From Gammaproteobacteria bacterium (GTDB taxonomy: Bacteria > Pseudomonadota > Gammaproteobacteria > Xanthomonadales > SZUA-36): a stretch of DNA of 64,000 nucleotides. The stretch spans positions 1-64,000 of the forward strand of contig JAJFLB010000031.1 of assembly GCA_021772915.1 (NCBI GenBank), read 5' to 3'. A model generated the notes under the pieces. That model was not told where the DNA came from. It saw only the letters and a program-made list of their open reading frames with translations, and searched no databases. Below, piece by piece: positions 23,321 to 53,569 of the stretch. Every line of letters starts with the position of its first letter. Position 1 is the stretch's first letter. Both the position numbers and the translations under genes were made by a program.

Positions 23321-24577
23321 ATGAGCAGTAAGGCACTAAACAGAGTTGCTGTAGTCGGTGGTGCACGTACGCCCTTTGCAAAAGCGGGGACCGCGCTGAA
23401 GGACTATTCCGCCCTGGAGTTGGCTGTTCATTCCGTAAATGGCGCGCTGGAGAAGCTGGACCTGGATCCTGGCACTGTTGACCAATTAGTTTATGGCACG
23501 GTGATTGTCAATCCAGCGGTCCCTCATCTTGCTCGTGAGGTCAATTTTAAAAGCGAACTGCCGGCAAAAGTACGTGCGCTAACGGTGACGGACAATTGCA
23601 TCAGCGGAACCTCTGCCATTGAATCTGTCCACGACAGCATCGCAATGGGCAGGGCGAAGACCGGGATTGCAGGTGGCGTGGAGTCCATGTCTAACCCACC
23701 GGTGATGTTCACCAAACAGGCAAGTCGCATATTCCTGGATGTCGCAAATGCAAAAACACTGGGTGACCGAATCAAGCTAATGGCCAGGTTACGGCCGCGG
23801 GACTTCAAACCTTGGTCATACGGCATTGCGGAGCCCTCCACCGGTCTGACCATGGGTGAACATACCGAAATCACAGTAAAACAATGGCAGATCTCCAGGA
23901 AAGAGCAGGATGCAATTGCGTTTCGTAGCCATATGAACGCGTACCAAGCCACTGCAAACGGCCGACTACAGGCGGAGATTTATCCTCTCATGGGTATTGA
24001 TCGTGATTTGTTGATTCGGTCAGACACGAATATGGACGCGCTGGCGAAATTAAAACCGGTATTTGATCGAAGCGATTCGGGAACAATTACCGCCGGCAAC
24101 TCAAGTGCGCTGACGGACGGTGCGGCTGCCGTAGTACTGATGTCAGAAGACCACGCACATCAATCAGGTTATGAACCTCTTGCTTACGTCAAAGATTTTA
24201 TCAGCGTTGGAATCGACCCAAGGGATGGGTTACTGATGGGTCCCGGTATCGCAGTGCCCAGACTGCTCAAACAAAACGGGTTGGCGCTTGATGATATCGA
24301 CATCATTGAAATGCACGAGGCATTTGGTGGTCAGGTAGTTTCAAACCTAAAGGCCTGGGAACAGGGTTGGAAGGAGCCGGCCATCGGCCGCGTTGATCGC
24401 GACATCCTAAACCCTTTGGGCAGCTCAATCGCTGTCGGTCATCCATTCGCTGCAACCGGCGCGCGTATTGTTACCACGCTTGCAAATGAATTGAAACGAC
24501 GCGATGCGCGCTATGGTCTGGTCAGCATTTGTGGTGCGGGAGCAACCGCTGTTGCCCTGTTATTAGAGCGGACCTAG
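23321..24577 (+). CDS. Acetyl-CoA C-acyltransferase (thiolase)
   Basis: NCISGTSAIESVHDSIAMGRAKTGIAGGVESMSNPP; GHPFAATGARIV; CGAGATAVA. Confidence 0.9.
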   Translation: MSSKALNRVAVVGGARTPFAKAGTALKDYSALELAVHSVNGALEKLDLDPGTVDQLVYGTVIVNPAVPHLAREVNFKSELPAKVRALTVTDNCISGTSAIESVHDSIAMGRAKTGIAGGVESMSNPPVMFTKQASRIFLDVANAKTLGDRIKLMARLRPRDFKPWSYGIAEPSTGLTMGEHTEITVKQWQISRKEQDAIAFRSHMNAYQATANGRLQAEIYPLMGIDRDLLIRSDTNMDALAKLKPVFDRSDSGTITAGNSSALTDGAAAVVLMSEDHAHQSGYEPLAYVKDFISVGIDPRDGLLMGPGIAVPRLLKQNGLALDDIDIIEMHEAFGGQVVSNLKAWEQGWKEPAIGRVDRDILNPLGSSIAVGHPFAATGARIVTTLANELKRRDARYGLVSICGAGATAVALLLERT

Positions 24578-24617
24578 ACTGGTCTTCAACAACGGGTGCC
24601 TATATTTGTTCTATTGA

Positions 24618-25550
24618 CTAGGCTCTAATCAAAAGCACGGCTCTGACCGGTGCGGGGTGTCCTTCAACGGTTAAGGTCTGGTTTTTGTTATCCAAACCCT
24701 CGCGCAGTGATTCAAAGATCATCCACTCGGTGCAGCGTTGCTCACGGGTCGTGGTCTTGCTTATGTCAAGCACCTTGCCGGCCGACAAACCGGCTTGTTT
24801 TAACCAGTGTTGCAATTTGATGAGCGTGGGAATGGCGTGCACATTACGCATGCGGGCATAGCGGCCGGCTGGCTGCAGTGTCTGCTCGCTTTCTTCCTCA
24901 AGGACCAGTGTTTCCAACACAATCTGCCCGCCGGTTCGGGTCAGTGTTTTGAGCTGTTCCAAGTGTTGGACCGGGTTCTGTCGATGATACAAAACCCCCA
25001 TTGAAAACACACAGTCAAACGCGCACGTGGATGTGGGCAGGTCTTCGATACCCAACGGCAAGACGAAGTTATTCAGTCCGGGACAGATTTTTTGCATCGC
25101 CAGCCATTGCATGACAAACACCAGCGTTGGATCAATACCAACTACCACAGCCGCACCGGCGCCCAACATTCGTAGCCCGAAGTAGCCATTGCCACAGCCG
25201 ATGTCCAGTATCCGCAGCCCTGCAAGCTCAAGGTGCGGCGCAATGCGGTTCCATTTCCAGTCAGACCGCCATTCGGTGTCTATTTCGACTCCACCCAATG
25301 CCACTGGTCCTTTTCGCCAGGGGTGGAGCTTCATTAACATTTTTGCCAGCTGTTGAGGGTCATCAACGGCGCGGCCCAGCACCGGCGTTTCCCGGTTAAG
25401 TTCGAACCAGGGATCACCTGCGGGCAGGCCATCGATCACTTCCTGCCAACGGGGCCAGTCACCGTGCGGGTTGCTTTGCAGTTTTTGCCAGCCCAGTTCC
25501 GCCAGTTCCGCCCAACTGGTCGCTGTTAGTCTTTGGTAGGGATTTCTCAC
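24618..25550 (-). CDS. cmoB: tRNA U34 carboxymethyltransferase CmoB
   Basis: GPVALGGVEIDTEWRSDWKWNRIAPHL, LDIGCGNGYFGLRMLGAGA; adjacent to cmoA. Confidence 0.93.
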   Translation of the reverse strand: MRNPYQRLTATSWAELAELGWQKLQSNPHGDWPRWQEVIDGLPAGDPWFELNRETPVLGRAVDDPQQLAKMLMKLHPWRKGPVALGGVEIDTEWRSDWKWNRIAPHLELAGLRILDIGCGNGYFGLRMLGAGAAVVVGIDPTLVFVMQWLAMQKICPGLNNFVLPLGIEDLPTSTCAFDCVFSMGVLYHRQNPVQHLEQLKTLTRTGGQIVLETLVLEEESEQTLQPAGRYARMRNVHAIPTLIKLQHWLKQAGLSAGKVLDISKTTTREQRCTEWMIFESLREGLDNKNQTLTVEGHPAPVRAVLLIRA

Positions 25551-26284
25551 CGAAAGGAAATATAGCTGACAAAATTAAAACACTGAAACCAGCGTCTTGA
25601 GCGGGTCAGTCCGGCCCGGGAAAAGCGCTCCAAATGTTGTTGTTCCGTATCGGGAATCAACACCGCTTCCAGTGCGTTGCGCTTTTGTGCGATCTCCAGA
25701 TCGGAATATCCCTGGGTGCGTTTAAAGTCATGATGCCACATGACCTGGTCTTCTTGTTCCCGGGGAGTCGTGAAGCAGATTTTTTCTGAAAGAATCAACG
25801 CTCCTCCGGTGCGCATACCTGTCGATATTCTATTGACCAGTTCTTGCCTTTGTCCCGGGTCAAGGAACTGCAATGTGAAATTCAGCACCACGACCGAGGC
25901 GTTTTCAACAGACGTATCCAGCAAGTTTTCTAACCGCACTTTGACCCCGGTTGGCCCACAATTGTCTTCCAGGCCTTGCCGGCAGCGCTTTACCATGGCT
26001 TCAGAATTATCCACGGCAATAACTTCAGCGCCTTGCGCCTTAACCGAGTGGCTCATGGCCAGGCTGGCGGCACCCAATGAACAGCCAAGGTCATAGATGT
26101 TTGAGTCATCCTGAGCATAACGTCGTGCCAACATGGCTATCATTGGAATCACCAATTCATAGCCCGGCACAGAGCGGGAAATCATGTCTGGAAAGACCTT
26201 TACCACCTGTTCGTCAAAGCGAAATTCTGTGGTGATTATGCGGCTTTTCGCAAACAAGTGGTCACGTTTGTCTCTCATACCCAA
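25547..26284 (-). CDS. cmoA: Carboxy-SAM synthase CmoA
   Basis: FDEQVVKVFPDMISRSVPGYELVIPMIAMLARRYAQDDSNIYDLGCSLGAASLAM. Confidence 0.93.
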   Translation of the reverse strand: MGMRDKRDHLFAKSRIITTEFRFDEQVVKVFPDMISRSVPGYELVIPMIAMLARRYAQDDSNIYDLGCSLGAASLAMSHSVKAQGAEVIAVDNSEAMVKRCRQGLEDNCGPTGVKVRLENLLDTSVENASVVVLNFTLQFLDPGQRQELVNRISTGMRTGGALILSEKICFTTPREQEDQVMWHHDFKRTQGYSDLEIAQKRNALEAVLIPDTEQQHLERFSRAGLTRSRRWFQCFNFVSYISFR

Positions 26285-26443
26285 CCTGCCTTGCGCCCCT
26301 TGTTTGCCGGGATCGGCAGTGACTTTTGGCGCATCCGATTAACCATCGCTTCTGTTACCCTTTCAATTGGAGAAAATGCTTATAGATTGGTATAACGTAT
26401 CGTACAGGAATCGTTGGTTCATGCGATAAAGAGAGGGTGTGAA

Positions 26444-27376
26444 ATGTTTGATAATCCTTTGATCTGGTCGTTTGTCGCTGCTGTTCTGGCCGTAATCGTC
26501 GTTCGCAAAGCGGTCATCATTGTGAAACAGGGTTACGAGTACACCATTGAGCGGTTTGGCCGTTACTACATTACGTTCAGTCCTGGTTTTCACTTTATGA
26601 TCCCGTTTGTTAACCGGGTCGGACAACGCGTTAACATGATGGAGCGGGTTCTGGATGTGCCATCACAGGAGGTCATCTCAAAAGATAACGCGGTTCTAAC
26701 CGTGGATGGTGTGGTGTTTTTCCAGGTGCTGGATGCCGCCAAAGCGGCCTATGAGGTCTTTCGTCTGGAACACGCTGTCCTGAACCTTACGGTAACCAAT
26801 ATCAGAACCGTTCTGGGTTCAATGGATCTTGACGATGCCCTGTCCAAACGCGACACCATCAATGCACAATTGCTGTCGGTGGTGGATGAAGCCACCACGC
26901 CGTGGGGTCTCAAGGTAACGCGTATTGAGATCAAGGACATTACGCCACCGATGGACCTGGTTAATGCCATGGCCCGGCAAATGAAAGCCGAACGTGAAAA
27001 ACGCGCCAATATTCTCGAAGCCGAAGGCCACCGCCAGTCAGAGATTCTACGTGCCGAAGGTGAAAAGCAAGCCGTTGTACTTGATGCAGAAGGCCGCAAG
27101 GAAGCGGCTTTCAGGGATGCCGAGGCACGTGAACGACTGGCGGAGGCCGAGGCCAATGCCACCACCGCCGTTTCAGACGCAATCGCAGCGGGTGATATGC
27201 AGGCAATCAACTATTTTGTGGCGCAGAAATACGTCGAAGCGCTCAAGGAATTTGCCAGCAGCCCTAACCAGAAAACGCTGCTGCTGCCAATGGAAACCAC
27301 CGGTATTCTGGGCAGTCTTGCGGGTATTACCGAACTGGCTAAAGCTGCATTAACTGACCAAAAACAGGGGGTTTAG
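26444..27376 (+). CDS. SPFH/stomatin-family protein (QmcA-like)
   Basis: [55 protein letters not shown]. Confidence 0.92.
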
Positions 27377-27831
27377 TGGCCATGATGGAGTGGCTTGAAC
27401 ATATTGTATTTTGGCACTGGTGGATTCTCGCCGGGTTATTGCTGATCCTTGAGTTGACTGCACCCGCTTTCTTCTTCCTATGGCTGGGTATTGCTGCTGC
27501 TGCGGTCGGTATGATCCTGTTGGTGTTTCCATCCATCCCCATTGAAACCCAGTTGGTACTGTTTGGTATCGCCTCCATTGTTGCTGTTCTCGCCTGGCGC
27601 AAATACCGGGAGTCCCGGCCACTTGCAACGGACCAGCCACACCTGAACCGGCGTGGACACCAGTACATCGGTCGTGTGTTTACACTTGATAACCCCATCA
27701 CCAATGGGGTCGGAAAAGTTACCGTTGATGACTCCACCTGGCGGGTCAAGGGCCCTGATCTGCCTGCCGGCACGGCCATAAAAGTTACCGGTATTGACGG
27801 CGTGATATTCAGAGTGGATGCTGCTGATTAG
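27376..27831 (+). CDS. NfeD-family membrane protein
   Basis: Small TM protein with C-terminal OB-like domain, adjacent to the SPFH gene. Confidence 0.85.
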   Translation: MAMMEWLEHIVFWHWWILAGLLLILELTAPAFFFLWLGIAAAAVGMILLVFPSIPIETQLVLFGIASIVAVLAWRKYRESRPLATDQPHLNRRGHQYIGRVFTLDNPITNGVGKVTVDDSTWRVKGPDLPAGTAIKVTGIDGVIFRVDAAD

Positions 27832-27951
27832 CAAAGCTGAATGTTCTGCATTGCAGGAGCATTATTTTCTCCGGCACACTATCCCGGCCTGAAATAGTAT
27901 TTGTGTGAAACTGGCAGGCTAACGTGCCGTACGGGTCTTCATGTTCCAGGC

Positions 27952-28710
27952 TTAGCTCTGAATCCGGTCCGCGCTGTCATGTGAGAGGACTATTTCAGCA
28001 AACCTTTGCAATACCGTCGTCGCTTTTTCTGTAGCCTTCACACGTGCAACAAGTTGCTCTGGTTTTAGCCCTTCCTCGCGCAAAGCAACGGCCCTGAGTT
28101 TCACGTATTGCGTCATGACGGCCGCAGAGAACTCTGGATGAAACTGTACACCCCAGACATTCCTGGCAAACCGCATTGCAAAGTTGTCGTCCAAAGGACT
28201 GCTGGCAAGCCGCTCCGCGTCTGCGGGTAATTCAAGAACACTCTCAGAGTGAGAAGTCTGCACCTCTAACTTCTGCGGCAAATGCCCCAACAAAGGATCA
28301 TTTGCTGCTGTTTTCAGTAACTGTGCGGTAGTGGTTCCAATCTGCCGGCCATTTGGATTGGGTCCCACCCGGCCACCCAGGGCGTGTGCGAGCAACTGGT
28401 GTCCGTAGCAAACCCCAAGTATTGGAATATGAGCCTCTACGGCAACCGTCAGCCATCTTGCGCATCGCTCACTCCAGTCTTCCCGCGCCGAAACCATGGC
28501 CGCAGAACCTGTAATTAAAACACCCGATAGTTGTGAGGGCTCCGGCAGTGGTTGCTGTTTGTAAACATCTACCTGCAACAGGTCTTCCACACCCGTTCCA
28601 GCCGCAAACCAGTCCTCAAAGTCCCCGTGCTCTGACTTTATTGGCCCAATCGTGCTGCCGGTTTTTATCAATGCAATCGGCTTCATCTCGCTCCCCGTGG
28701 GTACTGCCAT
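27952..28710 (-). CDS. Class I glutamine amidotransferase-like protein
   Basis: PILGVCYGHQLLAHALGGRVGPNPNGRQIGT; VQFHPEFS. Confidence 0.9.
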   Translation of the reverse strand: MAVPTGSEMKPIALIKTGSTIGPIKSEHGDFEDWFAAGTGVEDLLQVDVYKQQPLPEPSQLSGVLITGSAAMVSAREDWSERCARWLTVAVEAHIPILGVCYGHQLLAHALGGRVGPNPNGRQIGTTTAQLLKTAANDPLLGHLPQKLEVQTSHSESVLELPADAERLASSPLDDNFAMRFARNVWGVQFHPEFSAAVMTQYVKLRAVALREEGLKPEQLVARVKATEKATTVLQRFAEIVLSHDSADRIQS

Positions 28711-28723
28711 GAGGTTTTTCCCC

Positions 28724-29026
28724 TAGCCCGCATATCTCACCAGTATTCTGGAGAAGGTGAGACCGGGAACCAGATGAGAGGCTGGCCTGGGCCATGATGG
28801 CGCCGGCCACGTGCGGCTGGACGCAGGGTTGGACTGAGACCAATAGCCGTAGCTATTGGTCGAGGGAAACTCAAGTTCAGGCGGGCGTGGACAAGCCAGG
28901 GCCGGGATAGGTCCTGGGCCGGATACAAAATGTTCCACGGAGTTTAATAGTGAAAACATCATTTAATTCAACTGATTCATTGACATGTGGCGAGGCCCTG
29001 TACCGACTGGTGAAATATGCGGGCTA
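28724..29026. mobile_element. MITE-like element copy 1 (303 bp)
   Basis: Terminal inverted repeats tagcccgcatatctcaccag / ctggtgaaatatgcgggcta (one mismatch); internal homology to 42760-43020. Confidence 0.85.
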
Positions 29027-29093
29027 GCACCTTCTGTCTTTTGTCCCCCTTGGCTATACTACAGGGTATCGTCCCTGGTACCACAGGATTTTC

Positions 29094-29978
29094 ATGACCT
29101 TTCAGGATTTTATCAATTGCCTGCAGACCTATTGGGCAAATCAGGGTTGTGTGCTTGTTCAGCCGCTGGATATGGAGGTGGGGGCGGGCACCTTTCACCC
29201 CGCTACCTTTCTTCGCGCAATAGGGCCGGAGCCATGGAATGCGGCGTATGTGCAACCCAGCCGACGTCCCGCCGATGGCCGTTATGGTGAAAACCCGAAT
29301 CGTCTCCAGCACTACTACCAGTACCAGGTGGTCATGAAGCCTTCTCCGGATGACATCCAGGAGCTATACCTGGGTTCACTCAAGGCCATCGGTATTGATC
29401 CTGAAATTCATGATATCCGTTTTGTGGAGGACAACTGGGAGTCCCCGACACTGGGTGCATGGGGTCTGGGCTGGGAGGTTTGGCTCAACGGTATGGAAAT
29501 CACCCAATTCACCTATTTTCAACAAGCAGGCGGCCTGGAATGTCGGCCCGTACTGGGTGAGATTACCTACGGTCTGGAGCGACTGGCCATGTACCTGCAA
29601 AACGTAGACAGTGTTTTTGATATTGTCTGGACCGATTTTGGTGGTAAGAAAGTGACCTATGGCGAAGTTTTTCACCAAAACGAAGTGGAGCAATCCACCT
29701 ACAACTTTGAACACGCCGATACCACCTCACTTTTTGCCTGGTTTGACACCTGTGAATCACAAGCCCAGAACTTGGTGGCGGTGAATTTACCGCTACCGGC
29801 CTACGAGCAGGTCCTGAAAGCTTCCCACACCTTCAACTTGCTGGAGGCCCGCAGAGCGATTTCGGTTACCGAGCGCCAACGGTTTATCCTGCGGGTAAGA
29901 GATTTGGCCCGCCTGGTCGCCGAGAGTTACTATGCCAAACGTGAAGCGCTGGGTTTTCCGGGATTAAGCAGTGTCTAG
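29094..29978 (+). CDS. glyQ: Glycyl-tRNA synthetase alpha subunit
   Basis: [76 protein letters not shown]. Confidence 0.97.
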
Positions 29979-32049
29979 CCCACATCTGTTGATAGAGGTG
30001 GGTTGTGAGGAATTACCGCCCAAATCCCTGGCCGGCCTGGCTCAATCTTTATTGGCCGGCCTATCTGGTCAGCTTGATAAAGCACGGCTGTCATTTGATG
30101 TTGCTGCGAGCCGGGCCTACTACACACCCCGGCGTCTGGGTTTGCTTATGGCTGAGGTCGCGACACAACAACCTGATCAGTCAATGGAGCGTAAGGGCCC
30201 CGCAGTCAGCGCCGCTTTTGATAATGACGGACAACCCACCCCGGCAGCCATGGGGTTTGCAAAGTCCGTGGCCAAGAATGTTGCTGACCTTGACACCCTC
30301 AAGACTGATGGCGGCGAATGGCTATATTGTCGTGTTGAAAAAAGGGGGAAACCGCTCGGGGAACTTCTCTATCCCATGCTGGAGGCGGTGTTTGCTTCAT
30401 TGCCAATAGCCAAGCCCATGCGCTGGGGGGCAAATGACTTCAGTTTCATCCGGCCGGTGCACTGGCTGGTGATTATGCACGGTGCTGACATTATTGAAGG
30501 CCGTCTGTTTGGTCTGCAAGCCGGCAACCTGACCCAGGGACACAGAGTTCACAGCCGGGGTCCACATAAAATCGATTCGGCAAGTGACTACGAAAAAGTT
30601 CTCAACGCAGCTTTTGTTGAGGCTGATCAGGAAAACCGTAAATCACTGATCAAGCAGCAGGTCATTAAGCTGGGTAAAGACGCCGGTGGCGTGGCCGTGA
30701 TAGACGATGACCTGCTGGAAGAAGTCACCAACCTGGTCGAGTGGCCCCGAGCCATCTGTGGCAGTTTCGACGCTGAATTCCTGACCGTACCTGCTGAAGC
30801 ATTGATCGCAAGCATGCAGGCACATCAAAAGTTTTTTCCCGTGGTCGACACCGGTGACGGGCAGCTACTGGCCAGTTTCATCGCGGTAGCAAATCTTGAG
30901 AGTACGTCTTTTGCCGATGTTCAAAAGGGATTTGAGCGCGTAATTCGACCACGTCTTGCTGATGCGCGTTTTTTCTGGGACCAGGATAACAAAACCAGCT
31001 TTGAGACTTGGCTACCACAGCTTGACACGGTTGTTTTTCAAAACAAACTAGGATCAGTTGGCGACAAATCAAAGCGTTTAGCGTATGTTTCGAAGAAAAT
31101 AGCAGAAGAAACTGGTGTAGATGAAAACGCGGCCGAGGAGGCTGCCAGGCTGTGCAAGTGCGATCTGGTCAGTCAAATGGTCGCTGAATTTCCGGGTTTG
31201 CAAGGCGTTATGGGAGAGTATTACGCCCGCCGTGGTGGTGCGAGTGAATTGGTATCTCAGGCCATTGGCGACCACTATCTCCCCGCTTTTTCGGGCGACC
31301 GTCTACCCCGCAGCGCCGTGGGCAAGATTGTCGCCCTCGCGGACCGCCTGGACAGCTTAACCGGAATATTCGCAACCGGTGTAAGACCATCCGGTAATAA
31401 GGATCCCTTTGCCTTGCGACGCGCCGCACTTGGTCTGATTCGCATACTGCTTGCGAGTGAGCTTGATATCGGGTTGAACCGTTTACTTGCAATTTCTACA
31501 ACGAGTTTGCACAAACAGCTTCCTGTTGAGCCCCCGGTTCGCACGGAACTGCATCAGTTTATTGTTGAAAGACTTAAGCATTATTTACGTGACCAGGGTT
31601 ATTCGGCCAGCCTCGTCGATGCAGCCCTGGATGCCCCGTTAAACACCCTGCCAGACCTTTCTGCCCGACTGGCCGCGTTGGATACATTCATGAATCATGA
31701 TGATTCTGCCAAATTGGCGGCGGCCAACAAGCGAATTGGTAATATTCTGCGCAAGTCCAAGATTAAGTATGATGGGGATATTGACGAGGATAGGTTGGTT
31801 ATCGACGAAGAAAAGAACCTTTTCAATGAAATTAGCGGTTTGTACACGGAACTGAACGAGTTTTTTGAACAGGCTGACTACACCGCGGCCCTGACCCTGC
31901 TTGCTGGTCTGTCAGCCAGCATTGAGGCTTTTTTTGATAAGGTTCTCGTCATGGATGACGATGCGAAAATCCGTCTTAACCGCTTAAACCTGCTAGCAAG
32001 ACTCAAAGGTCTGTTTGACCGCATAGCGAATTTTGCCCTGATTGGTTAA
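29971..32049 (+). CDS. glyS: Glycyl-tRNA synthetase beta subunit
   Basis: [15 protein letters not shown]...overlaps glyQ. Confidence 0.97.
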
Positions 32050-32125
32050 CACCTGATACGGCGCAGAATCAGTAGTCCCCAGTTAACCACCGAGCATGTG
32101 ACCGTGTGGAAGATGCTGAAACTGT

Positions 32126-34585
<2,460 letters not shown>

Positions 34586-34695
34586 CTATTTGCAGTTTTG
34601 GTACGGAAAAAAACATCCTGAAGCAGGCATGATTGTACCATTTTTTAGCAATAAATGCCTGTTTTAACGGCTTTTTTAAGCGCTTTGGCAGATTT

Positions 34696-35760
34696 TCAGG
34701 ACACCTTGCCATGTTTCACGTGAAACAGCTTGAAATCCGCCCCACAAAGCTCGACCGCCTGTGGCAAAACTGTTCCTGTCAGCCAGATCTGTACTCCCAA
34801 ATCCAGGCCTGCACCGAGGACCTTTTCAAGATGTTTCCGGTCGAGTTCTGAAGCCAGGTCATCCAGCAACAAAACAGGTTTTTCACCGGATTCACAGATC
34901 AACTGAGCCTGGGCCATAAGCAGTGCAGCAGTCAGGACTTTTTGTTCCCCGCGTGACAGTTTTTCTTTTGCAGCGGTGCCGTCCAGACTAAAATATAATT
35001 CTGCCTTGTGTGGGCCCGAACCAGTGGTACCACGCTCTGTGTCGCGCTTTACGGACTGCTGTACCGCTTCCAAAAGGCTCTCCCCGGACCAACCTTTTCG
35101 ATACCGCATTCCGATTCCACCCAGATTTTTGTCCAGTTGTTCCAGCCGGCCTTGCAGCTTCCCGGTAAGACAGGCGGCATACTGCTCGCGAGCCCCATGT
35201 AATTCCTCTCCCAGACTGGCAAGTGGCAGGTCCAGGCTCTCAACGACATCCGCTGCGGATTGCCGCAAGGCAGCATTGCGTTGTTTCAGGGTGCGATTGT
35301 AACGTCGCCACAAAGTGAGAAAACCCTGTTTCACGTGAAACACACCCCAATCAAGATACTTTCGACGGCCCTCCGGAGGGCCGCTGACCAACCTATGGCT
35401 GCTGGGTTCTAGCAAGACATAAGGCAGCAATTGTGTTAACTCACTTAACTGGGTCACAGCCTCACCGTTGTGTCTGGCATTCCAATGCTCAACACCTCGC
35501 TCCATACCCAGTTGGTGTGAATCTTTTGAGTCGCTTTTTATGGTAGCTATAATTTGTAACTTATTGTTTTTATTACCAATTATAGAGGATATTTGTCCAG
35601 ATCGAAAGGATCTGCCCTTTGACAGCAATACCAGGGCCTCAAGCAGGCTGGTCTTACCCGAACCATTTGGACCAACGAAGCAGTTCAGACCAGGAATAGG
35701 GTTGAATTGTGCGATCTTTACATTTCTTAGATTATTGATACTAAAGGATTTTACAAGCAT
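34696..35760 (-). CDS. recF: DNA replication/repair protein RecF
   Basis: SINNLRNVKIAQFNPIPGLNCFVGPNGSGKTSLLEALVLLSKGRSFR; DDLASELD. Confidence 0.96.
   Translation of the reverse strand: MLVKSFSINNLRNVKIAQFNPIPGLNCFVGPNGSGKTSLLEALVLLSKGRSFRSGQISSIIGNKNNKLQIIATIKSDSKDSHQLGMERGVEHWNARHNGEAVTQLSELTQLLPYVLLEPSSHRLVSGPPEGRRKYLDWGVFHVKQGFLTLWRRYNRTLKQRNAALRQSAADVVESLDLPLASLGEELHGAREQYAACLTGKLQGRLEQLDKNLGGIGMRYRKGWSGESLLEAVQQSVKRDTERGTTGSGPHKAELYFSLDGTAAKEKLSRGEQKVLTAALLMAQAQLICESGEKPVLLLDDLASELDRKHLEKVLGAGLDLGVQIWLTGTVLPQAVELCGADFKLFHVKHGKVS
34712..34727. promoter_or_regulatory. parS-like ParB-binding site 1
   Basis: TGTTTCACGTGAAACA, perfect 16 bp palindrome identical to the canonical chromosomal parS. 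Confidence 0.9.
35327..35342. promoter_or_regulatory. parS-like ParB-binding site 2
   Basis: TGTTTCACGTGAAACA, second perfect copy. Confidence 0.9.
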
Positions 35761-35837
35761 TTTTTAATGCATTTCAGTTTGGAGGACCAATGAGCGTGTC
35801 CACCAGGAAACTTATCTGACCAACAAACCGGTCAGCC

Positions 35838-36938
35838 CTACAGCTTGAGGGGCATTACCACGTGTCGGTTGATATTAGAATCGGGGGCTGAAACCAGGCA
35901 GCTGCTATTGGCGTCCTTCAACTCCAATGAGACCTGCTCCGTTTCAATCGCCATGAGTGCATCCAGCAAATAAGTGACATTGAACCCTACCGCCAGGCGC
36001 TCAAAATTAAGCTCGGCTTCGATTTCTTCCAACGCCTCTTCATGTTGCGGGTTGTGAGCCACAATTTTTATCATGGACTCGGCTGCCTCCAGTCTGACGC
36101 CCTTGTATTTTTCGTTCGACAAAATAGCTGCTCGCTGCAACGCCTGTGTAAACGCCAGGCGATCAACCAGTATCTGATTGTCCGCACCGACCGGAACCAC
36201 CGCCCTGTAATCGGGAAACCGGCCATCAATCAATTTTGAAGTGAAGGTCGTTTCCCCTTTGACCAGACGCACATGGTTTCGACCGATGGCCAGTGTAACC
36301 TCATCTTCGTCACCGGAAAGCATTCGTGTTAACTCCATGACACCTTTGCGGGGCACGATTAGTTGCCGGTCACCGGAAATCTCTATGGGTTCCTCAAGAT
36401 CGCAGATCGCCAATCTGTGGCCGTCCGTCGCGATGGCTCGTAGAAGTTTGTCACTCAAATCAAACAGCAAACCATTAAGGTAGTAACGCACATCCTGATT
36501 TGCCATCGCAAACGAGGTCTTGTCCATCATCTTTTTCAAGGCTGCTTCACTGACAACTACGTTTTCCAGTGTTTCTACCTGATCGGTTGCGGGGAACTCT
36601 GACGCTGGCAGCGTTGAAAGTGTAAAGCGGCTTCGACCTGCGGAGATAGTGGCCTTGTCATCACTACTGGAGAAGGTAATTTTGACTCCATCAGGAAGCG
36701 CCCTGATGATATCTATCATTTTACGGGCCGGTACCGTAATTTCACCGTCAGCTGAAATATCAGCAGACACTTTGGAGACCAATTCAACCTCCATGTCTGT
36801 ACCGGTCACAGTCAAGCTCTGGTCACGTCCAACAAGTAAAAAATTCGCCAGGACGGGTAAAGTTTGGCGACGTTCAACAACTCCGATGACCTGGCTGAGT
36901 GGCTGCAGTAAGACTTCCCTGGATATCGTGAGTTTCAT
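35838..36938 (-). CDS. dnaN: DNA polymerase III beta sliding clamp
   Basis: MKLTISREVLLQPLSQVIGVVERRQTLPVLANFLL...NRHVVMPLKL. Confidence 0.97.
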   Translation of the reverse strand: MKLTISREVLLQPLSQVIGVVERRQTLPVLANFLLVGRDQSLTVTGTDMEVELVSKVSADISADGEITVPARKMIDIIRALPDGVKITFSSSDDKATISAGRSRFTLSTLPASEFPATDQVETLENVVVSEAALKKMMDKTSFAMANQDVRYYLNGLLFDLSDKLLRAIATDGHRLAICDLEEPIEISGDRQLIVPRKGVMELTRMLSGDEDEVTLAIGRNHVRLVKGETTFTSKLIDGRFPDYRAVVPVGADNQILVDRLAFTQALQRAAILSNEKYKGVRLEAAESMIKIVAHNPQHEEALEEIEAELNFERLAVGFNVTYLLDALMAIETEQVSLELKDANSSCLVSAPDSNINRHVVMPLKL

Positions 36939-37134
36939 GATCCGTTCCTTTTATTACTGTTCTTATAAATAAGATATATATTAAACAGTAGTAGTAGTAA
37001 GCCCTGTTAGTAAGTTTAAAACGCGATAAACCTTTTATATTTTAACCAGTTAAAAACGACTTGCCTGTGTAAATATGGTCCTGTAATTTGTGCACAAGCT
37101 GTGGACTGAAAACCGCAAATTTTTTAAGTCGATC

Positions 37135-37181: not shown

Positions 37182-38498
37182 TCAGGTGGTCAACAAACGC
37201 AGTAATTTGGCTTTGTCTTCCCGCAAACGACCATCCGTTTCGCACAACTCCTCAATTTTCCGACAAGCATGCAAAACAGTGGTATGGTCACGCCCACCGC
37301 AAGCGTCACCAATTTCCGGCAGGCTGTGCTGGGTCAACTCCTTAGCCAACGCCATTGCCATTTGCCTGGGACGGGCTATGCTGCGGGTTCTACGCCGGGA
37401 TAGTAACTCTGAAAGCCGCATCTTGTAATATTCACAAACGGTTTTTTGGATGTTCTCAATCGTAATCAAACGATCGTGAACCGTCAGCAAATCACGCAAA
37501 ACTTCCCGGGTAAAACTCTCGGTTATTGCCTTACCGGTAAACCCTGCGTTTGCAATTAAAGTATTCAGTGCGCCCTCGAGATCACGTACGTGGGAACGCA
37601 AACGCTCGGCAATCAGGAATGCCACGGACTCTTCCAGTTGAACACCCCGCTCCTGGGCCTTATTCAAAAGGATGGCAACACGGGTTTCAAAATCTGGTGG
37701 CTCGATGACGATAGTCAATCCCCAGCTAAAACGTGAGCGCAAGCGTGCTTCCAGTCCTTCAACCTCTTTTGGATAGCGATCACAAGTCAATACAATCTGT
37801 TGTTTGCTATCTAACAATGCATTGAAAGTATGAAAAAATTCTTCCTGGGTTCTTTCCTTTCCTGCAAAAAACTGGACATCGTCAATCAGCAGTGCCCCCG
37901 CTGAACGGTAATGAGATTTGAATTCACCAATAACACCTTGACGCAAGGCCTGGATCATCTCACTGACAAAACGCTCAGAGTCCAGGTACAAAACCTTGAT
38001 GGACGGATTCTGTTGACGGATATGATTCCCAATAGCGTGCAGGAGGTGGGTCTTACCCAATCCGGTGCTGCCATACAGCAGTAAGGGGTTGTACGCACCG
38101 CCGGGCTTTTTTGAAATTTGCAACGCCGCCTCGTAACCCAGTTCATTGGACTTACCACGTACAAAATTATCAAATTGGTATCGACTGTCCAGGCCATTTT
38201 TTGGTCTGTTTCCGAGTGACATGGACGGTGTTCTATTCTTCTTAGTTTCGGGCTCAGATAGCTGACTGTCCTCAATACTCACCGTATCTCTGGAGTCACC
38301 GAGATGCTCAAAAATATCACGTACCCGCTCCAGGTAATGGGTGGTGATGTGGTCTCTGACATAAGAATTCGGTGCCACCAGGCGGGTCCGGGTTTTGCTG
38401 GTTACAACCTCAAGTGGACGAATAAAAGTATTGAAATCCTCGGGGGGTATCTCCCGCTCAAGATGCTGAAGGCAGCGAAGCCAGGTGTTTTGCGTCAT
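37182..38498 (-). CDS. dnaA: Chromosomal replication initiator DnaA
   Basis: YNPLLLYGSTGLGKTHLLHAIGNHI; ALLIDDVQFFAGKERTQEEFFHTFNALL; GGRDHTTVLHACRKIE. Confidence 0.98.
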   Translation of the reverse strand: MTQNTWLRCLQHLEREIPPEDFNTFIRPLEVVTSKTRTRLVAPNSYVRDHITTHYLERVRDIFEHLGDSRDTVSIEDSQLSEPETKKNRTPSMSLGNRPKNGLDSRYQFDNFVRGKSNELGYEAALQISKKPGGAYNPLLLYGSTGLGKTHLLHAIGNHIRQQNPSIKVLYLDSERFVSEMIQALRQGVIGEFKSHYRSAGALLIDDVQFFAGKERTQEEFFHTFNALLDSKQQIVLTCDRYPKEVEGLEARLRSRFSWGLTIVIEPPDFETRVAILLNKAQERGVQLEESVAFLIAERLRSHVRDLEGALNTLIANAGFTGKAITESFTREVLRDLLTVHDRLITIENIQKTVCEYYKMRLSELLSRRRTRSIARPRQMAMALAKELTQHSLPEIGDACGGRDHTTVLHACRKIEELCETDGRLREDKAKLLRLLTT

Positions 38499-38669
38499 GC
38501 CGAGTTCAAACCTATGGGCTTTGTCATATCCGGCACAAAGACTGGTCGGCGTTAATGTGCCAGGTTCTTATTTGGTTTACCGGAATTTACGAAGGATCGC
38601 ATGATACACCGCCAGGTTCTCCCAGGATGATGTAATCACCCCACCCGGTAAAGGCCTAGTCTAACGTGC

Positions 38670-38678
38670 TGTGGATAA
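38670..38678 (-). promoter_or_regulatory. Consensus DnaA box (TTATCCACA on the minus strand), candidate oriC region with 38500-38830
   Basis: tgtggataa between dnaA and rpmH, next to A/T-rich stretch ttggctataaaaaaacatctatta. Confidence 0.6.
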
Positions 38679-38830
38679 CTTGGCTATAAAAAAACATCTA
38701 TTAGGAGGGAAACAAAAATACGTGGCTAATTGCTTGAATGATCAGCCTATACGGGATACCATTCGCCTCTTGTGTTGACTGCTTTCAGTAATGAAAAGGC
38801 AGTCCTGAGAGAATTTAAAGAGGCTCGCTA

Positions 38831-38965
38831 ATGAAACGTACTTTTCAACCCAGCCGGTTAAAACGTGCTCGTAGACACGGCTTTCGTGCTCGTATGGCAA
38901 CCCGTGGTGGCCGCGCAGTCATCAATGCGCGCCGAGCCAAGGGTCGCAAGCGCCTGAGCGCCTGA
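38831..38965 (+). CDS. rpmH: 50S ribosomal protein L34 (absent from the supplied ORF track because of its length)
   Basis: [44 protein letters not shown]. Confidence 0.98.
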
Positions 38966-39045
38966 TCAGTATAGTCCGGAGCCACCACCATCACTGGGTA
39001 AACAGGCTCACCTAGCACACAAAAGGGAAAGGCAGGCCAGGAGAG

Positions 39046-43282: not shown

Positions 43283-43777
43283 TCAGATGAACAGATTGAT
43301 ATGGCTTTGGGTCGCAACCTCGACATAAGTTGCCGCACCACCCAACTCAGGGCCGTCAATCATTTCATCAAATGAATATTCGAACAGATCCATGGTCATC
43401 TGGCATGCGATCATACGAACCTCGGCCTCAAGGGCAAATTCACGCAACTCTTCAATGGTCGCGACACCCTTCTTGGACATGAGGTTTTTCATCATTTTTG
43501 AGGCTGCGGCGTCAATACCTGGAATGGCAGATACGATATTCGGCATTCCCATGTGCATACCCATCATCGGCATTTTCATGGCCGGATTACCTAACGAGGA
43601 AATTTGCAAATTCAGATCCTTCAAGAGCAATGGCAAGCCGTAAAAGGTAAAAAACATGGTGACATCCAAACCCATGGCTGCCGCGGTGGTGCCGACAATA
43701 AAGGGTGGGTAGGCCCAGTCAAGCGTGCCTTTCGTGACGATAATAGACATGGTATTGGGGTCAATATTGTTGCTCAT
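43283..43777 (-). CDS. DsrE2-like sulfur-trafficking protein (DsrE/DsrF/DrsH-like)
   Basis: IIVTKGTLDWAYPPFIVGTTAAAMGLDVTMFFTFYGL...MIACQMTMDLF...IDGPELGGAATYVE. Confidence 0.88.
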   Translation of the reverse strand: MSNNIDPNTMSIIVTKGTLDWAYPPFIVGTTAAAMGLDVTMFFTFYGLPLLLKDLNLQISSLGNPAMKMPMMGMHMGMPNIVSAIPGIDAAASKMMKNLMSKKGVATIEELREFALEAEVRMIACQMTMDLFEYSFDEMIDGPELGGAATYVEVATQSHINLFI

Positions 43778-44047
43778 GAGTGGTCCATTTAATAAGGTAA
43801 AACCTTCTTTTGTTAGTAGCTTAGGAGTTTCGAGTATATATTAAACTTCGTTTATTAGGGAAATCGAATATTCAATGCAACAGGCAAAAATACTGGTCGG
43901 AATTTTGTGCCAACACGACGTATGAGACCCGGTAAGTTGCAATCTGCCTTCACAAGGCCACTGAGAATAGATCGTAGGTTAGTTGGATTAACCCAACTAT
44001 CCGCCCGGCAGTCTGGAATCCATTTTTGTGGCGGCAATGTGTGGGTG

Positions 44048-44968
44048 CTAGGCGTTTTGTACCAGGATGTCCAACTTTTCAGAACGGACCGTGTTGCGGT
44101 GCAGACCGGCATCTTTCCTCCCATCCAAACCGAAGGCTTTGGCCATCAGCTGGCTGTAGAAGACCACCGGAAGATTGAAGTCAGTACCGAATTTTTTGTT
44201 GATTTCCGCCTGATACATTTCCACGTTGGTTTGGCACAAAGGGCAGGGTGTTGAGATGACGTCAGCCCCGGCATCCTCGGCGGCTTGCAGGATTTCCTTG
44301 ATCAGGTGAAGGGTTTTCTCCGGGGAAATAACCGAGATCGAACCACCACAGCAACTGGTCTTGACATTGAAGTCCACCGCTTCGGCCCCACAGGCCTCGG
44401 CAAATTGATCGAGAAACTCAGGGTCATCAAAGGTATCGTAATTGCCGCCTGATTCCGTGTTGGCAAAGGGCCGAACAGTCTGGCAGCCAACGTAGCCCGC
44501 CACTTTAAGCCCATCCAGAGGCTGGGTCACTCGCTCCTTGATTTTGTCGATACCAACCTCGTTGACGATAACTTCGCAGGCATGGCGGACCTGCAAACTG
44601 GCCTCGTAGGACAAATCGGCAACCGCCAAAGACTCATTTACTTTGTTTTGCAGGGCGACGTCGGCCTTGATTCTCTCATTTGCCCCGTGGGTGTTCAGAT
44701 AACAAGCAGCGCAACCCGTAATCACATCGGTTGCATGCTGGGTCTCCGCCTTCGCCAGGTTGCGTCCGGTCAGTGCTGTTGTTGGCAATGGCCCCCCGCC
44801 GATATTGCCAACTGAGGCCCCGCAACAATTCCAGTCGTCCAGTTCCTCCATTTCAAGCCCGAGCTCCGGGATGATTGCACGCAGGGACTCATCGAGGTGT
44901 TTGGAGCTGCCCTGGGAGCTACACCCGGGGTAATAAACGTATTTTTTCCTGGCGTCTTTGCTGTTCAT
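44048..44968 (-). CDS. hdrB: Heterodisulfide reductase subunit B-like (two CCG domains)
   Basis: YYPGCSSQG...WNCCGAS...GCAACY and VGCQTVRP...SCCGGS...CPLCQTN. Confidence 0.93.
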   Translation of the reverse strand: MNSKDARKKYVYYPGCSSQGSSKHLDESLRAIIPELGLEMEELDDWNCCGASVGNIGGGPLPTTALTGRNLAKAETQHATDVITGCAACYLNTHGANERIKADVALQNKVNESLAVADLSYEASLQVRHACEVIVNEVGIDKIKERVTQPLDGLKVAGYVGCQTVRPFANTESGGNYDTFDDPEFLDQFAEACGAEAVDFNVKTSCCGGSISVISPEKTLHLIKEILQAAEDAGADVISTPCPLCQTNVEMYQAEINKKFGTDFNLPVVFYSQLMAKAFGLDGRKDAGLHRNTVRSEKLDILVQNA

Positions 44969-45582
44969 GATTTGTCTTCACCCAATTGATCACGGGCTTC
45001 TATTTCAGCGGCCTTTTCCAGTATTGCCTGCAGACCACCGGTGTCTGAAACTTTGTGCGGAAGACCCAGGTGCATACGCCCTTTCAGAATCAGATCCAGG
45101 GCAATCTTCAGATTTCCCAGGCCCCTTTTAATGCCTTCGGCCAAACCAAAGGAAAAATAGAACTTTGCGGTCACCAGTCTTTCGTCTGTTCTGCCGAAAT
45201 GCGTAACGCTCCACCAGAAAGAACGCGCAAAGCGACTGGTTACCACCTCATCGGCATAACCTAGGGAAACGGCCTTGGCTGCCAGACCCTGTACGATGGA
45301 GGTGACCGGAATACCACGGGGGCAGCGGACGGTACAACGGTAACAGGAGGTACAGTTCCACAGGGTATTGGAACGCAATACGGTATCCTTCATGCCCGCC
45401 CTGATCATCATGATGAGCTTGCGTGGACCGTGGTCCATGTCAGTACCAATCGGGCAAGATCCCGAGCAAGCCCCGCATTGCATACACATCGACAACTGGT
45501 CACCGCCCTTGACGTTTTCATAGACCCACCTGGCAAAACCAAGGTCGTATTTCTGGCTGCTGTCGGGTAACGGTGTTGCCAC
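44965..45582 (-). CDS. hdrC: Heterodisulfide reductase subunit C-like ferredoxin
   Basis: CMQCGACSGSCPIG and CTSCYRCTVRCPRG. Confidence 0.92.
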   Translation of the reverse strand: MATPLPDSSQKYDLGFARWVYENVKGGDQLSMCMQCGACSGSCPIGTDMDHGPRKLIMMIRAGMKDTVLRSNTLWNCTSCYRCTVRCPRGIPVTSIVQGLAAKAVSLGYADEVVTSRFARSFWWSVTHFGRTDERLVTAKFYFSFGLAEGIKRGLGNLKIALDLILKGRMHLGLPHKVSDTGGLQAILEKAAEIEARDQLGEDKS

Positions 45583-45584
45583 GT

Positions 45585-47903
45585 CTAAAACCCCTTGAAT
45601 GGGTTAAACCCGATTGCTTCGATCGTTTCAACAAAGCCGTTAATAACCTCGGGAATGCGACCCGAGTCAGCGATTGAAACCTCTTCCAGGGTCACTCGTT
45701 CCTCTTCCAGCATCAGGCTCTTCAGGGTTTCGCCGACTTTGGACAAACGCTCCTTGGCTAGACCACTGCCTTTGATGTAATGGCACTGGTAGTCGTCACC
45801 AGACTTGCAGCCCATCAGCATGATGCCGTCAAAGCCCTTTTCAAGCGCGGTCGAAATCCACAACAAATTAATCGATCCCAGGCAGCGGACAGGAATAATA
45901 CGAACAAAGGCGCTGTATTGATAACGATTTAAGCCGGCCATATCCAACGCTGGATAAGCATCATTCTCGCAGGCGAAGATCAGAATTCGGGGCTTTTCCG
46001 AAAACTCGTCCGGTACCTCAATGGCGGCAATCATCTCGCTGACCATATGTGGGCTGTAGTTGTCGAAACTGATAGTGCGCACGGGGCAGGCGCCCATACA
46101 GGTACCACAGCGACGGCAACGCGACTCAATCAATATGGGGAATTGCCTTTCATCCTCTTCGATCGCTCCAAATGGACATTCAATCGTGCAACGGCGGCAC
46201 TTGGTGCAGATATCCAGGCCAAATTTAGGGAAAGACAGGTCTCCCACACGCGGGTGCATGGCCGCCCCTCGAGCCGCTCCCTCGATCGCCTGAATGGCTT
46301 TAAGTGCCGCACCCGCCGCATCCTCTGCTGCTTCCGCCATATTCATCGGTCGACGTACCGGTCCACAGGTATAAATGCCGGTTCTGCGGGTTTCATAAGG
46401 GAAGCAAAGATAGTGCGAGTCGGAAAACCCGTCGGTCAGAATCGGGATATGAGGTCCCTGCACGTATTGTAAATTGAGTAAGGCCCCTCCCGGCAAGACC
46501 GGCTCTGCTGCGGCCCCTCCATTGACAGCTTCCGTATTCTCACCGGGTTCAGATTTGGATTTATCGTCATTATTGTCAATAACCCGAATGGCCAGCGGCA
46601 GAGGTGCATTCGGGTTGACATCGCTGACCAGTTGATCGGCCCCGGTTTCGGCCGGATCAATATGAGGGTTGGTTGAATTGGGCACCATCCCCGTGGCCAG
46701 AACGACCAGGTCGGGGTTCTGCAGGCTTACCTCTTCACCCAGAAGCATATCGTCATACACCAACCCGAGATCCGCAGACACGCTACGCACCTTGCCCTTG
46801 ATAAATACAATGCCGGCTTCCTGGGCCTGCCGATAAAACTCTTCCGCCGTACCGGGAGTACGCAGCTCCTGGAAGAGGATATAGACATTGGCACCGGGGT
46901 CAGCCCGGATTATCTGGAGCGCCTGTTTAATCGAAACCCCGCAGCAAACTGATGAACAGTAAGGCAGGTGATCGGGATCAAGCGAGCCAGCGCATTGTAC
47001 AAATACGACAGTCTTGGCTGGTTTGTCATCTGACTTGCGTTGCAATGGTCCCTCACCCAGCATCTCCTCAAGCTCAACCCCGGTGACAACGTCAGTGCTC
47101 TGACCGTAGCCCAGATGACTGAGTTTGCCGGCGTCATAGGGACGCCAGCCAGTGGCGACTACGATGGCGCCGACATGCTCCGTTCGTGATTCATCACCCA
47201 GCTCAATGGTTACGGTGAATTTTCCGGGGCCACCCTCGGTTTTTGTCACGAGGGCACCGGTAAGGATCGTAATAGCGGGTTCCGCCTCGGTTGCCGCAAT
47301 CAGTTCGTCAGTGCTGTTAGCCTGGGGGTCGCGATACGGTGGCAGGTGGGGCATGGTTTTTGACCATTTGTTGGCCCAACCACCCACATGATCTTGCTGC
47401 TCGACCAGTAAAACCTCATATCCGGTCCTGGCGGCCTCTAGCGCAGCCGTCAATCCAGTTGTGCCAGCACCTAAAACCAGCAGGGTCCGGCTGTATTCAC
47501 CTTCCGGTTCAGCGCTTGCAGGTAAAGTCTCAGTCGCCTGTGCGATGGCCATGCGCAAGTTGTCGTCGGCCAGCATCTGCGTGTCTTCTTCGCCCGCAGG
47601 TTGTGACCACGCGACCTGCTCTCGCAGGTTAGCGCGCACTGCCGTGGCGCCATCGAAGGTAAACCGATCTGTCATCGCTCGGGGGGAACAGGCGGCAACA
47701 ATCGGCTGATTTACATCACCTCCGACAAGGTCGGCATCGATGAGTGCGCGTCCTTCATTACTACACAGGAAATCATGCCGGCGGCATATCGGTACTTTAA
47801 GTTCGGTACTGGCTATCTGCTCAAGCGCGTCGACAGAAACTGCGTCACCGATACCACAACCCTGACACAGGTATACACCGGTTCTTGTGATGTAGTCGCT
47901 CAT
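45585..47903 (-). CDS. qmoB: QmoB-like: HdrA-type flavoprotein with ferredoxin and C-terminal MvhD domain
   Basis: FAD motif LVLGAGTTGLTAALEAARTGYEVLLVE; CTKCRRCTIECPFG...CRRCGTCMGACPV; MvhD-like RIIPVRCLGSINLLWISTALEKGFDGIMLMGCKSGDDYQCHYIKGS. Confidence 0.88.
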   Translation of the reverse strand: MSDYITRTGVYLCQGCGIGDAVSVDALEQIASTELKVPICRRHDFLCSNEGRALIDADLVGGDVNQPIVAACSPRAMTDRFTFDGATAVRANLREQVAWSQPAGEEDTQMLADDNLRMAIAQATETLPASAEPEGEYSRTLLVLGAGTTGLTAALEAARTGYEVLLVEQQDHVGGWANKWSKTMPHLPPYRDPQANSTDELIAATEAEPAITILTGALVTKTEGGPGKFTVTIELGDESRTEHVGAIVVATGWRPYDAGKLSHLGYGQSTDVVTGVELEEMLGEGPLQRKSDDKPAKTVVFVQCAGSLDPDHLPYCSSVCCGVSIKQALQIIRADPGANVYILFQELRTPGTAEEFYRQAQEAGIVFIKGKVRSVSADLGLVYDDMLLGEEVSLQNPDLVVLATGMVPNSTNPHIDPAETGADQLVSDVNPNAPLPLAIRVIDNNDDKSKSEPGENTEAVNGGAAAEPVLPGGALLNLQYVQGPHIPILTDGFSDSHYLCFPYETRRTGIYTCGPVRRPMNMAEAAEDAAGAALKAIQAIEGAARGAAMHPRVGDLSFPKFGLDICTKCRRCTIECPFGAIEEDERQFPILIESRCRRCGTCMGACPVRTISFDNYSPHMVSEMIAAIEVPDEFSEKPRILIFACENDAYPALDMAGLNRYQYSAFVRIIPVRCLGSINLLWISTALEKGFDGIMLMGCKSGDDYQCHYIKGSGLAKERLSKVGETLKSLMLEEERVTLEEVSIADSGRIPEVINGFVETIEAIGFNPFKGF

Positions 47904-49216
47904 CCCGTACTTGCCCCGGGGCTAACGGTACGGATCGCCTGGATCGCCCTTAATGCTGCCGCGGTGGCTGATTGAACTGACATGGAAACATCCAGAGGCC
48001 CGCCACTCACACCCGCTGCGGACATACCGGGTTCATCACCGGGCAGCGGTACGATAAAACCATAATCATCCCGGTTTCCCATCTGCACGGAGGTGGTATC
48101 TGACAACGCGGTGGGCTCCATACCGAGCGCCAGCACCACCAGGTCATAGGGCCTGGCGTAGATTTCCCGACTCAATGTATCCTCGCCACATATAACCGGT
48201 GTGCCATCGTCCTCAAGCTCGATATGTCCCGGCTTGGACTTGACGAAATTGATCTGCGGGTCAGCACTTACACGCTGGTAAAAAGCTTCCAGTTTGTCGT
48301 GTGCGCGAATGTCGATATAGTAAATATCGATAGCCGCATCTGGATACTGTTCGCGTACATAAACGGCATGCTTCATTGAAGCAAGACAGCAAATCCGTGA
48401 GCAGTAGGGCAGGTGATTGGTGTCGCGGGAACCGGCGCACTGGATCAACGCAACACGTTTCGCCGGTTTCCCATTTGAGGGGCGCAGGATTTTACCGCCG
48501 GTAGGTCCATCGTGAGCTGCAAGACGCTCCATTTCCAGGTTGTTGATAATATCCGGGCTGGCGTCGTATGAATAAGGTGTGATCCTGGTCGCGTCATAAG
48601 GTTTCCATCCGGTTGCCCAGATCACAGCTCCAACCTTGAGGTCAAATACCGTTTCGGTTTCCTCCAGGTCAACTGCACCATATCCACAGGCGTCCCTGAT
48701 TTTTTCTGCATCTGGTGAGCCGATCACTTCTGGAGCGATTACATAGCGTTGCGGATAAGCGTGTTCATGTGGCAAATACGCGGCACTCACCGAGTCCATG
48801 CCATGGTTAAACGGATTTGAAACTTTCACCTTGCTGGCCTTGGCACAGTCGCCGCAAGCGGTACATTTTTCATTGACGAAACGCGGCCGGGTTTTGACCG
48901 AGACCTGATAGTCGCCTACCTGCCCGTTCAAGGACTCAACCCTGGCCATTGTAATGACCTTGATACTTGGGTTGTTCCGGATTCTTTGGTAGTTGATTTC
49001 CAACCCACAGGAGGGATGACAAAGTTTGGGGAAATAGCGATTGAGACTTGCCACCCGTCCTCCCAGGGCCGGGCTTTTTTCCAGCAGGATCACGGCATAG
49101 CCGGTTTCTGCCGCTTCTACTGCGGCCGTGATTCCGGCGATGCCACCGCCTACGACCAGGATGGTTTGACTTGCTGGTCCTTGGTTCAACCTGCCTCTCC
49201 GCTTGCTCAAACTCAC
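47900..49216 (-). CDS. qmoA: QmoA-like HdrA-type flavoprotein
   Basis: ILVVGGGIAGITAAVEAAETGYAVILLEKSPALGGRVASLNRYFPKLCHPSCGLEINYQRIRNN. Confidence 0.9.
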   Translation of the reverse strand: MSLSKRRGRLNQGPASQTILVVGGGIAGITAAVEAAETGYAVILLEKSPALGGRVASLNRYFPKLCHPSCGLEINYQRIRNNPSIKVITMARVESLNGQVGDYQVSVKTRPRFVNEKCTACGDCAKASKVKVSNPFNHGMDSVSAAYLPHEHAYPQRYVIAPEVIGSPDAEKIRDACGYGAVDLEETETVFDLKVGAVIWATGWKPYDATRITPYSYDASPDIINNLEMERLAAHDGPTGGKILRPSNGKPAKRVALIQCAGSRDTNHLPYCSRICCLASMKHAVYVREQYPDAAIDIYYIDIRAHDKLEAFYQRVSADPQINFVKSKPGHIELEDDGTPVICGEDTLSREIYARPYDLVVLALGMEPTALSDTTSVQMGNRDDYGFIVPLPGDEPGMSAAGVSGGPLDVSMSVQSATAAALRAIQAIRTVSPGASTG

Positions 49217-49375
49217 TTTTTCGACGATCCTTGTTAACTTTAGAATCTTACCTGAACACTAATATATTCGATTTTCGTCATATAATCGATGTGGATGAAC
49301 TGAAGTGGCCAGTTACGCGTGATTTTCTAGGCTTTGTGAGCTGTAGCAAAACAACATTGTGAGGAGCAGATAATC

Positions 49376-50554
49376 GTGTCAAAGTTAGTGGAACCACATG
49401 GTGGTGAGGGACTCAAGGCGCTGTTAGAGCCACCGGTAGAGCGGGCAAGGGAACTCAGTCGTGCCGAAGGATTAAAGAAGGTCCCCATGACGAGCCGGGA
49501 AACCTCGGATTTGCTGATGATGGCCATGGGCGCCTACACACCGCTGCAAGGCTTCATGGGGGAGGCAGACTGGCGTGGTGCAAGTGTTGATATGAAACTG
49601 GAAAACGGGGTGTTCTGGCCAATTCCAATTACGCTCTCGTGCAATCAGGATCTCGCAGACCAAATTCACATTGAAGAAGAGGTTGCGCTGGTTGGTGTTG
49701 AAGATGGGGCGGTCATGGCGATCATGCAGGTGACGGAAAAGTACACACCTGACAGAAACCTGGAATGCGAGCATGTTTACCGCACCAGGGACACCGCCCA
49801 TCCGGGGGTGCAAAAGGTTCTGCAGCAAGGTGAGACCAATCTGGCCGGGCCTGTGACCTGTCTGTCCGAAGGCGACTACCCGGAAAAATACCCGGAGCTG
49901 TATATCCGGCCGGCCCAGGCGCGGGCGATGTTCCAGGATAACGGATGGTCACAGGTGGCTGCGTTTCAGACCCGCAATCCGATGCAGCGGGCTCACGAAC
50001 ACCTCGTGAAGATTGCCATAGAGGTCACCGACGGAGTCTTTATACACCAGGTCCTCGGCAAGCTGAAACCCGGGGACATACCGGCTGACGTGCGCACTCA
50101 GGCCATCCAGGCGATGATCGACAATTACTTTGTGCCGGGCACGGTGATCCAGGCGGGTTACCCGATTGAAATGCGTTACGCGGGCCCGCGTGAAGCCTTG
50201 TTGCATGCATTGATTCGTCAGAATTTCGGTTGTTCCCACCTGATTGTAGGGCGTGACCACGCCGGAGTCGGTGATTACTATGGGCCCTTTGATGCCCACC
50301 ATATCTTTGACAGTCTGTGGGTTGGGGCCCTGGAAACGCAAGCCTTGAAAATCGATATTACATTCTTTTGCAACAAGTGCTATGGCATGGCCACCGGCAA
50401 AACCTGCCCCCACGGTGATGAGGATCGGATCCACATTTCAGGCACCGAACAACGGGCCATGCTTTCCCGGCAAACGGACGTACCACTGGAGTTCAGTCGT
50501 CCGGAGGTCATTGAGATTTTGAGAAATTACTATCGCGGACTGGAGGATTGTTGA
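49376..50554 (+). CDS. sat: Sulfate adenylyltransferase (ATP sulfurylase)
   Basis: [55 protein letters not shown]. Confidence 0.96.
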
Positions 50555-53562: not shown

Positions 53563-53569
53563 GTCTGCA

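Follow-up and report, generated by a model that had tools for sequence, protein, structure and literature searches.

Two perfect copies of the parS palindrome lie inside the coding sequence of recF in a draft gammaproteobacterial genome, where the same bases would act both as a chromosome-segregation site and as codons of an unrelated protein. This raises the question of whether selection maintains the DNA or the RecF peptide, and whether such a pair could be the centromere of the chromosome. The stretch of DNA analysed, referred to here as the window, is 64 kb long, and the assembly to which it belongs comprises 4,679,591 bp in 71 contigs and is 98% complete.

Two palindromes within recF

The palindrome TGTTTCACGTGAAACA occurs without mismatch just twice in the window, with a spacing of 615 bp (Table 1), and both copies conform to the 16-bp palindrome TGTTNCACGTGAAACA by which parS is recognised. 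When up to three mismatches were allowed the window gave four matches, the two perfect ones included, against a mean of 0.40 in shuffled windows, which never gave four. Both copies are read in frame by recF, an open reading frame that matches the TIGR00611 recf profile with 321 bits (cut-off 172). Site 1 lies in the middle of the gene and encodes residues 141-144 (V-FHVK-QG), and site 2 lies at its 3' end, encoding residues 346-349 near the C-terminus (L-FHVK-HG). A preliminary description of this DNA had reported two perfect parS palindromes in recF, 615 bp apart and encoding FHVK, which was reproduced exactly. It had also put them within about 4 kb of dnaA, in agreement with the 3.2-3.8 kb that separate the sites from the dnaA start codon.

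Table 1. Features of the recF region, in window positions.
Feature	Position	Strand	Basis
parS palindrome TGTTTCACGTGAAACA, site 2	34712..34727	.	perfect match; kept in congeners; class-wide codon conservation
parS palindrome TGTTTCACGTGAAACA, site 1	35327..35342	.	perfect match; kept in congeners; class-wide codon conservation
recF (354 aa), carrying both parS sites	34696..35760	-	ORF; TIGR00611 profile match
gyrB, downstream neighbour in dnaA-dnaN-recF-gyrB cluster	32126..34570	-	ORF; named by sequence and gene order
dnaN (sliding clamp)	35838..36938	-	ORF; named by sequence and gene order
dnaA, origin-region marker	37182..38498	-	ORF; named by sequence and gene order
probable oriC region, between dnaA and rnpA	38499..39045	.	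DnaA box and GC skew; oriC assignment inferred

The GC skew changes sign, from negative to positive, near 38 kb of the window, whose only perfect DnaA box is found at 38670-38678 on the minus strand, so that the replication origin is probably directly beside dnaA. The distance to dnaA, the skew turn and the DnaA box together place the pair in the origin domain, the location expected of a chromosomal parS centromere. Further along the window, positions 43283-54475 hold a cluster resembling sulfur-oxidation genes, with DsrE-like and heterodisulfide reductase/Qmo-like proteins, an ATP sulfurylase (49376-50554) and an adenylylsulfate reductase-like subunit (51607-53562), all named by eye.

parS count and partner proteins in the genome

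The genome-wide count of parS that the preliminary description had called for gave two sites, both in recF: at zero or one mismatch the pair is the only parS-like sequence in the whole genome. One further site with two mismatches (C16:92227) has the CACGTG core altered to GACGTC, and additional parS could conceivably lie in sequence missing from the 71-contig draft. The same description had placed the parAB genes outside the window and had named their absence from the genome as evidence against ParB loading. They do lie outside the window, but they are not absent. A parA-parB pair is found on contig C16 (151378-153166; L106:5376-7158), adjoining rsmG and a few kb away from an atpB-like gene. 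It lies at least ~118 kb from both ends of this 271-kb contig and therefore is not beside the origin and the dnaA-recF region here.

The parA gene, immediately upstream of parB and adjoining rsmG, encodes a 259-aa ParA-type ATPase; its matches to ParA/MinD-type models fall below their cut-offs, and its name rests on sequence and gene order. The ParB protein matches the ParB/Spo0J domain model TIGR00180 with 192.7 bits (cut-off 58.45) and carries the GERR motif. In an alignment with the Caulobacter ParB structure 6t1f, its residues opposite R173 and G201 are likewise Arg and Gly, which are specificity residues of the parS type and not of the Noc type (PMC7383237). The domain and the specificity residues are thus both those of a cognate ParB. 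Elsewhere in the genome, the GC-rich contig C67 encodes ParB-domain proteins (24000-37000; L107), one of them fused to a DNA methyltransferase-like part; this looks like a prophage and is possibly of foreign origin.

DNA or protein as the target of selection

Within the genus, the recF sites are present in 9/9 other genomes. In eight of these both sites occur 615 bp apart, and the ninth is cut off by a contig end at the place expected for the second site; the form of the sites alternates between TTTC and TTCC and between GAAA and GGAA. Conservation extends to the class. In 149 gammaproteobacterial genomes, evenly drawn and nearly one per genus, GTTYCACGTGRAAC occurs exactly twice in 93, once in 16, three or more times in 21 and not at all in 19, and a reversed control pattern is nearly absent. 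Where a genome has exactly two parS and a readable recF (n=85), both copies lie in recF in 71 cases. Among 121 recF genes (that of the window plus 120 others), canonical parS codons are found at site 1 in 98, at site 2 in 94 and at both in 84. A stricter count demanding the flanking G and C leaves 84 entries and, with the window (which had a second entry as L108) counted once, 83 distinct genomes in which both 14-mers are complete. Many loci from Halomonas, Billgrantia and Chromohalobacter (L037-L099) carry, besides the recF pair, extra parS about 2.5-4 kb downstream of recF, as in L045 (parS at 9564, 10278 and 10325), and L026 has a third perfect parS (7222-7237) about 190 bp past the second recF site.

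Such a pattern could also arise if RecF required FHV[E/K] twice and the palindrome were a by-product of its codons. At both site 1 and site 2 FHV[E/K] is found in over 80% of the class sample, a frequency taken from the evenly drawn set only, since a separate set of 80 loci had been selected by peptide patterns including FHVK. The codons, however, are far more uniform than such a requirement would make them. Genes encoding FHV[E/K] use the parS codons in 98/101 cases at site 1 and 94/98 at site 2, against 10.9 and 11.0 (sd 3.1) expected from the codon usage of each recF. An internal control was provided by 76 recF alignment columns with at least 70% of one amino acid, ranked by conservation of the third base. 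Ranks 1-5 are all parS columns (V143, E144, H142, H347 and V348, with 95-97% one third base); the next-ranked column reaches 73% and the median of the 76 is 50%. Synonymous sites elsewhere in recF are nearly free at this depth, so that conservation of the parS columns reflects selection on the DNA. The comparison of codon-level with amino-acid conservation, suggested as a check in the preliminary description, very strongly favours DNA-level selection. Every check that was run thus backs the interpretation given there, with recF codons doubling as a segregation signal. A different null, a count of 12-mers able to encode FHV[E/K] within the 80 loci, was discarded because palindromes entered it on both strands and the loci are parS-enriched.

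The peptide also disappears with the site. Where a gene has neither parS nor a one-step variant of it, FHV[E/K] is encoded in 0/16 cases at site 1 and 0/17 at site 2. Codon bias far beyond usage, combined with loss of the peptide where parS is lost, strongly supports the view that the DNA is what selection holds and that the RecF protein accommodates it.

Outside the class, the residues at site 1 are unrelated (FSRR or LALD, for example) and FHV[E/K] is absent there. Site 2 retains a looser F-x-V outside the class, and FHVE occurs there twice without parS (L271 and L275). This observation suits a requirement of the protein; it implies that part of the site 2 peptide is older than parS, and the second parS site probably arose on a pre-existing F-x-V motif. 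Genomes of the class that lack ParB carry other residues at the two positions, as do E. coli and the non-gammaproteobacterial Pseudomonadota, and no RecF with FHV[E/K] and free synonymous codons was seen in ParB-less lineages. In two genomes with no ParB match (G166 and G256) site 1 reads FHHH and site 2 FEVN or FQVD, and G189, whose sole ParB is a distant one, has FHNE at site 1 and FRVE at site 2. Two others (G069 and G141) have parS elsewhere in the genome and decayed recF motifs. E. coli belongs to the Enterobacteriaceae, which like the Pasteurellaceae are without chromosomal par genes (PMC3909081), and its RecF has FHNE and FTVE. In the K-12 gene (L229) the two positions are occupied by TTTCACAACGAAC and TTTACCGTGGAA, possible remnants of parS left when the par genes were lost.

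Altered pairs, known systems and the proposed role

Five genomes from different families have no canonical parS and carry an altered parS-like sequence at both recF positions. G031 (L129) has CCACATGG at both sites (peptide FHME), G093 (L194) has TCATATGA at both (FHMK) and G157 (L206) has CCACGTAG at both, and the pairs are TCACATGA with TCATGTGA in G012 (L217) and CTACGTAG with CCACGTAG in G038 (L227). Variant genomes have V replaced by M at one or both sites, yet the parS-like DNA is retained, which again speaks against a demand of the protein. Beyond the recF pair, four of the five have no match to the degenerate pattern, and G093 has two more that are dissimilar. Both sites are canonical in 84 cases, both altered in five and mixed in two (Fisher p = 8e-7 in a test that ignores phylogeny). 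The joint alteration suggests a change of ParB specificity that both recF sites then followed, despite the Val to Met change in RecF. Another genome without canonical parS, G014 (L221), has one altered site in recF and one 3.5 kb off, and all six genomes are candidates for altered ParB specificity. The shift in G157 looks recent, because G023 of the same genus is canonical. A comparison of the recognition helices of seven variant ParBs with those of canonical ParBs showed no residue that separates the two groups cleanly (one control, L296, did not align), and the K in the GHAK of variant ParBs occurs also in canonical ones, so that co-evolution of ParB itself is unproven. With the codon usage, the ParB-less lineages and the altered pairs taken together, a requirement of RecF for its own peptide is a very improbable explanation of the sites.

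The arrangement itself has been described in P. aeruginosa, where parS1 and parS2, the parS closest to oriC, lie inside recF (PMC3909081, PMC5521831). Segregation in that species needs only one of parS1-4, whichever that is (PMC4368675), and ParB was found bound at the parS1-4 cluster by ChIP-seq (PMC5098823). Synonymous mutations were made in parS1 and parS2 at positions 2, 5, 8, 11 and 14 (PMC4368675 Table 1), which implies the frame nTG-TTC-CAC-GTG-GAA-C and hence FHVE. The two systems share two parS in recF (about 4 kb from oriC in P. aeruginosa) and the FHV[E/K] frame, the pair here occupying alignment positions 141 and 346, with the P. aeruginosa frame taken from the mutation table. They differ in that P. 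aeruginosa has TGTTCCACGTGGAACM where the form here is TTTC...GAAA (FHVK), in that it has ten parS in all, with parS3/4 intergenic, whereas only the recF pair is found here, and in that its parAB lies about 7 kb from oriC (PMC4368675), unlike the distant parAB of this genome. The sites described here are a fresh instance of this arrangement, and among the literature searched only the P. aeruginosa work places parS in recF.

We consider both palindromes to be the chromosome's only two parS centromeres, with the recF codons fixed by ParB recognition, at a probability of about 0.93. By analogy with characterised ParABS systems, we infer for this organism that its own ParB, encoded on contig C16, would load at each site in a CTP-dependent manner, then slide and spread across the dnaN-recF-gyrB region, and that ParA would separate the replicated origins. 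The recF gene would thereby serve two functions: ParB recognition would hold codons 141-144 and 346-349 to TTY-CAC-GTG-RAA, and the F-H-V-[E/K] at these places would be demanded by the centromere and not by any need of RecF.

ParB bound at these sites might instead chiefly regulate the dnaA-dnaN-recF-gyrB operon. In P. aeruginosa an excess of ParB does reduce expression near parS1-4, but at its native level ParB affects only genes at the intergenic parS3/4 and has no such effect at the intragenic parS1/2 (PMC5521831). The present genome, moreover, has no other parS that could act as centromere, and a mainly regulatory role is accordingly given very little weight. That the palindromes are functionless products of chance or relics is hardly credible at all, given two perfect 16-mers beyond chance expectation and their conservation in genus and class.

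Beyond this genome, the centromere reading likely extends to the class: the recF pair would be an inherited and often sole chromosomal centromere across Gammaproteobacteria that has dictated two RecF tetrapeptides class-wide, and when ParB specificity drifts both sites would be rewritten together, changing RecF residues. The parS specificity of an uncultured lineage could then be told from its recF sequence alone. The part of this pattern by which the centromere, and not RecF function, fixes both peptides is strongly supported by the sequence comparisons. Its novelty is provisional, as neither the pattern nor its effect on RecF was found described in the open literature searched, a scope that leaves aside the main 2007 parS survey. 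It is a clear example in which a site for chromosome segregation constrains the amino acids of an unrelated conserved protein throughout a class. It also makes testable why the centromere remains in recF though parAB has moved away, and the genomes with both recF sites altered do the same for a joint change in ParB and parS specificity.

Among related elements, the Noc-binding site (NBS) is a similar palindrome with a related binding protein, and has a CCCGGG core instead of CACGTG. An identity as NBS was rejected, since the core here is CACGTG and the ParB scores 224 bits against the Noc model, under its cut-off of 315. The parS of B. subtilis Spo0J represents the general bacterial parS consensus and is the same type of 16-bp palindrome near the origin as that found here; B. 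subtilis is not known to have a recF pair. Its ten parS are spread around the origin (PMC7022226), compared with two here. In Caulobacter, which belongs to another class, recF-gyrB was a hot spot in a screen with transposon-borne parS (PMC5815017), perhaps by coincidence.
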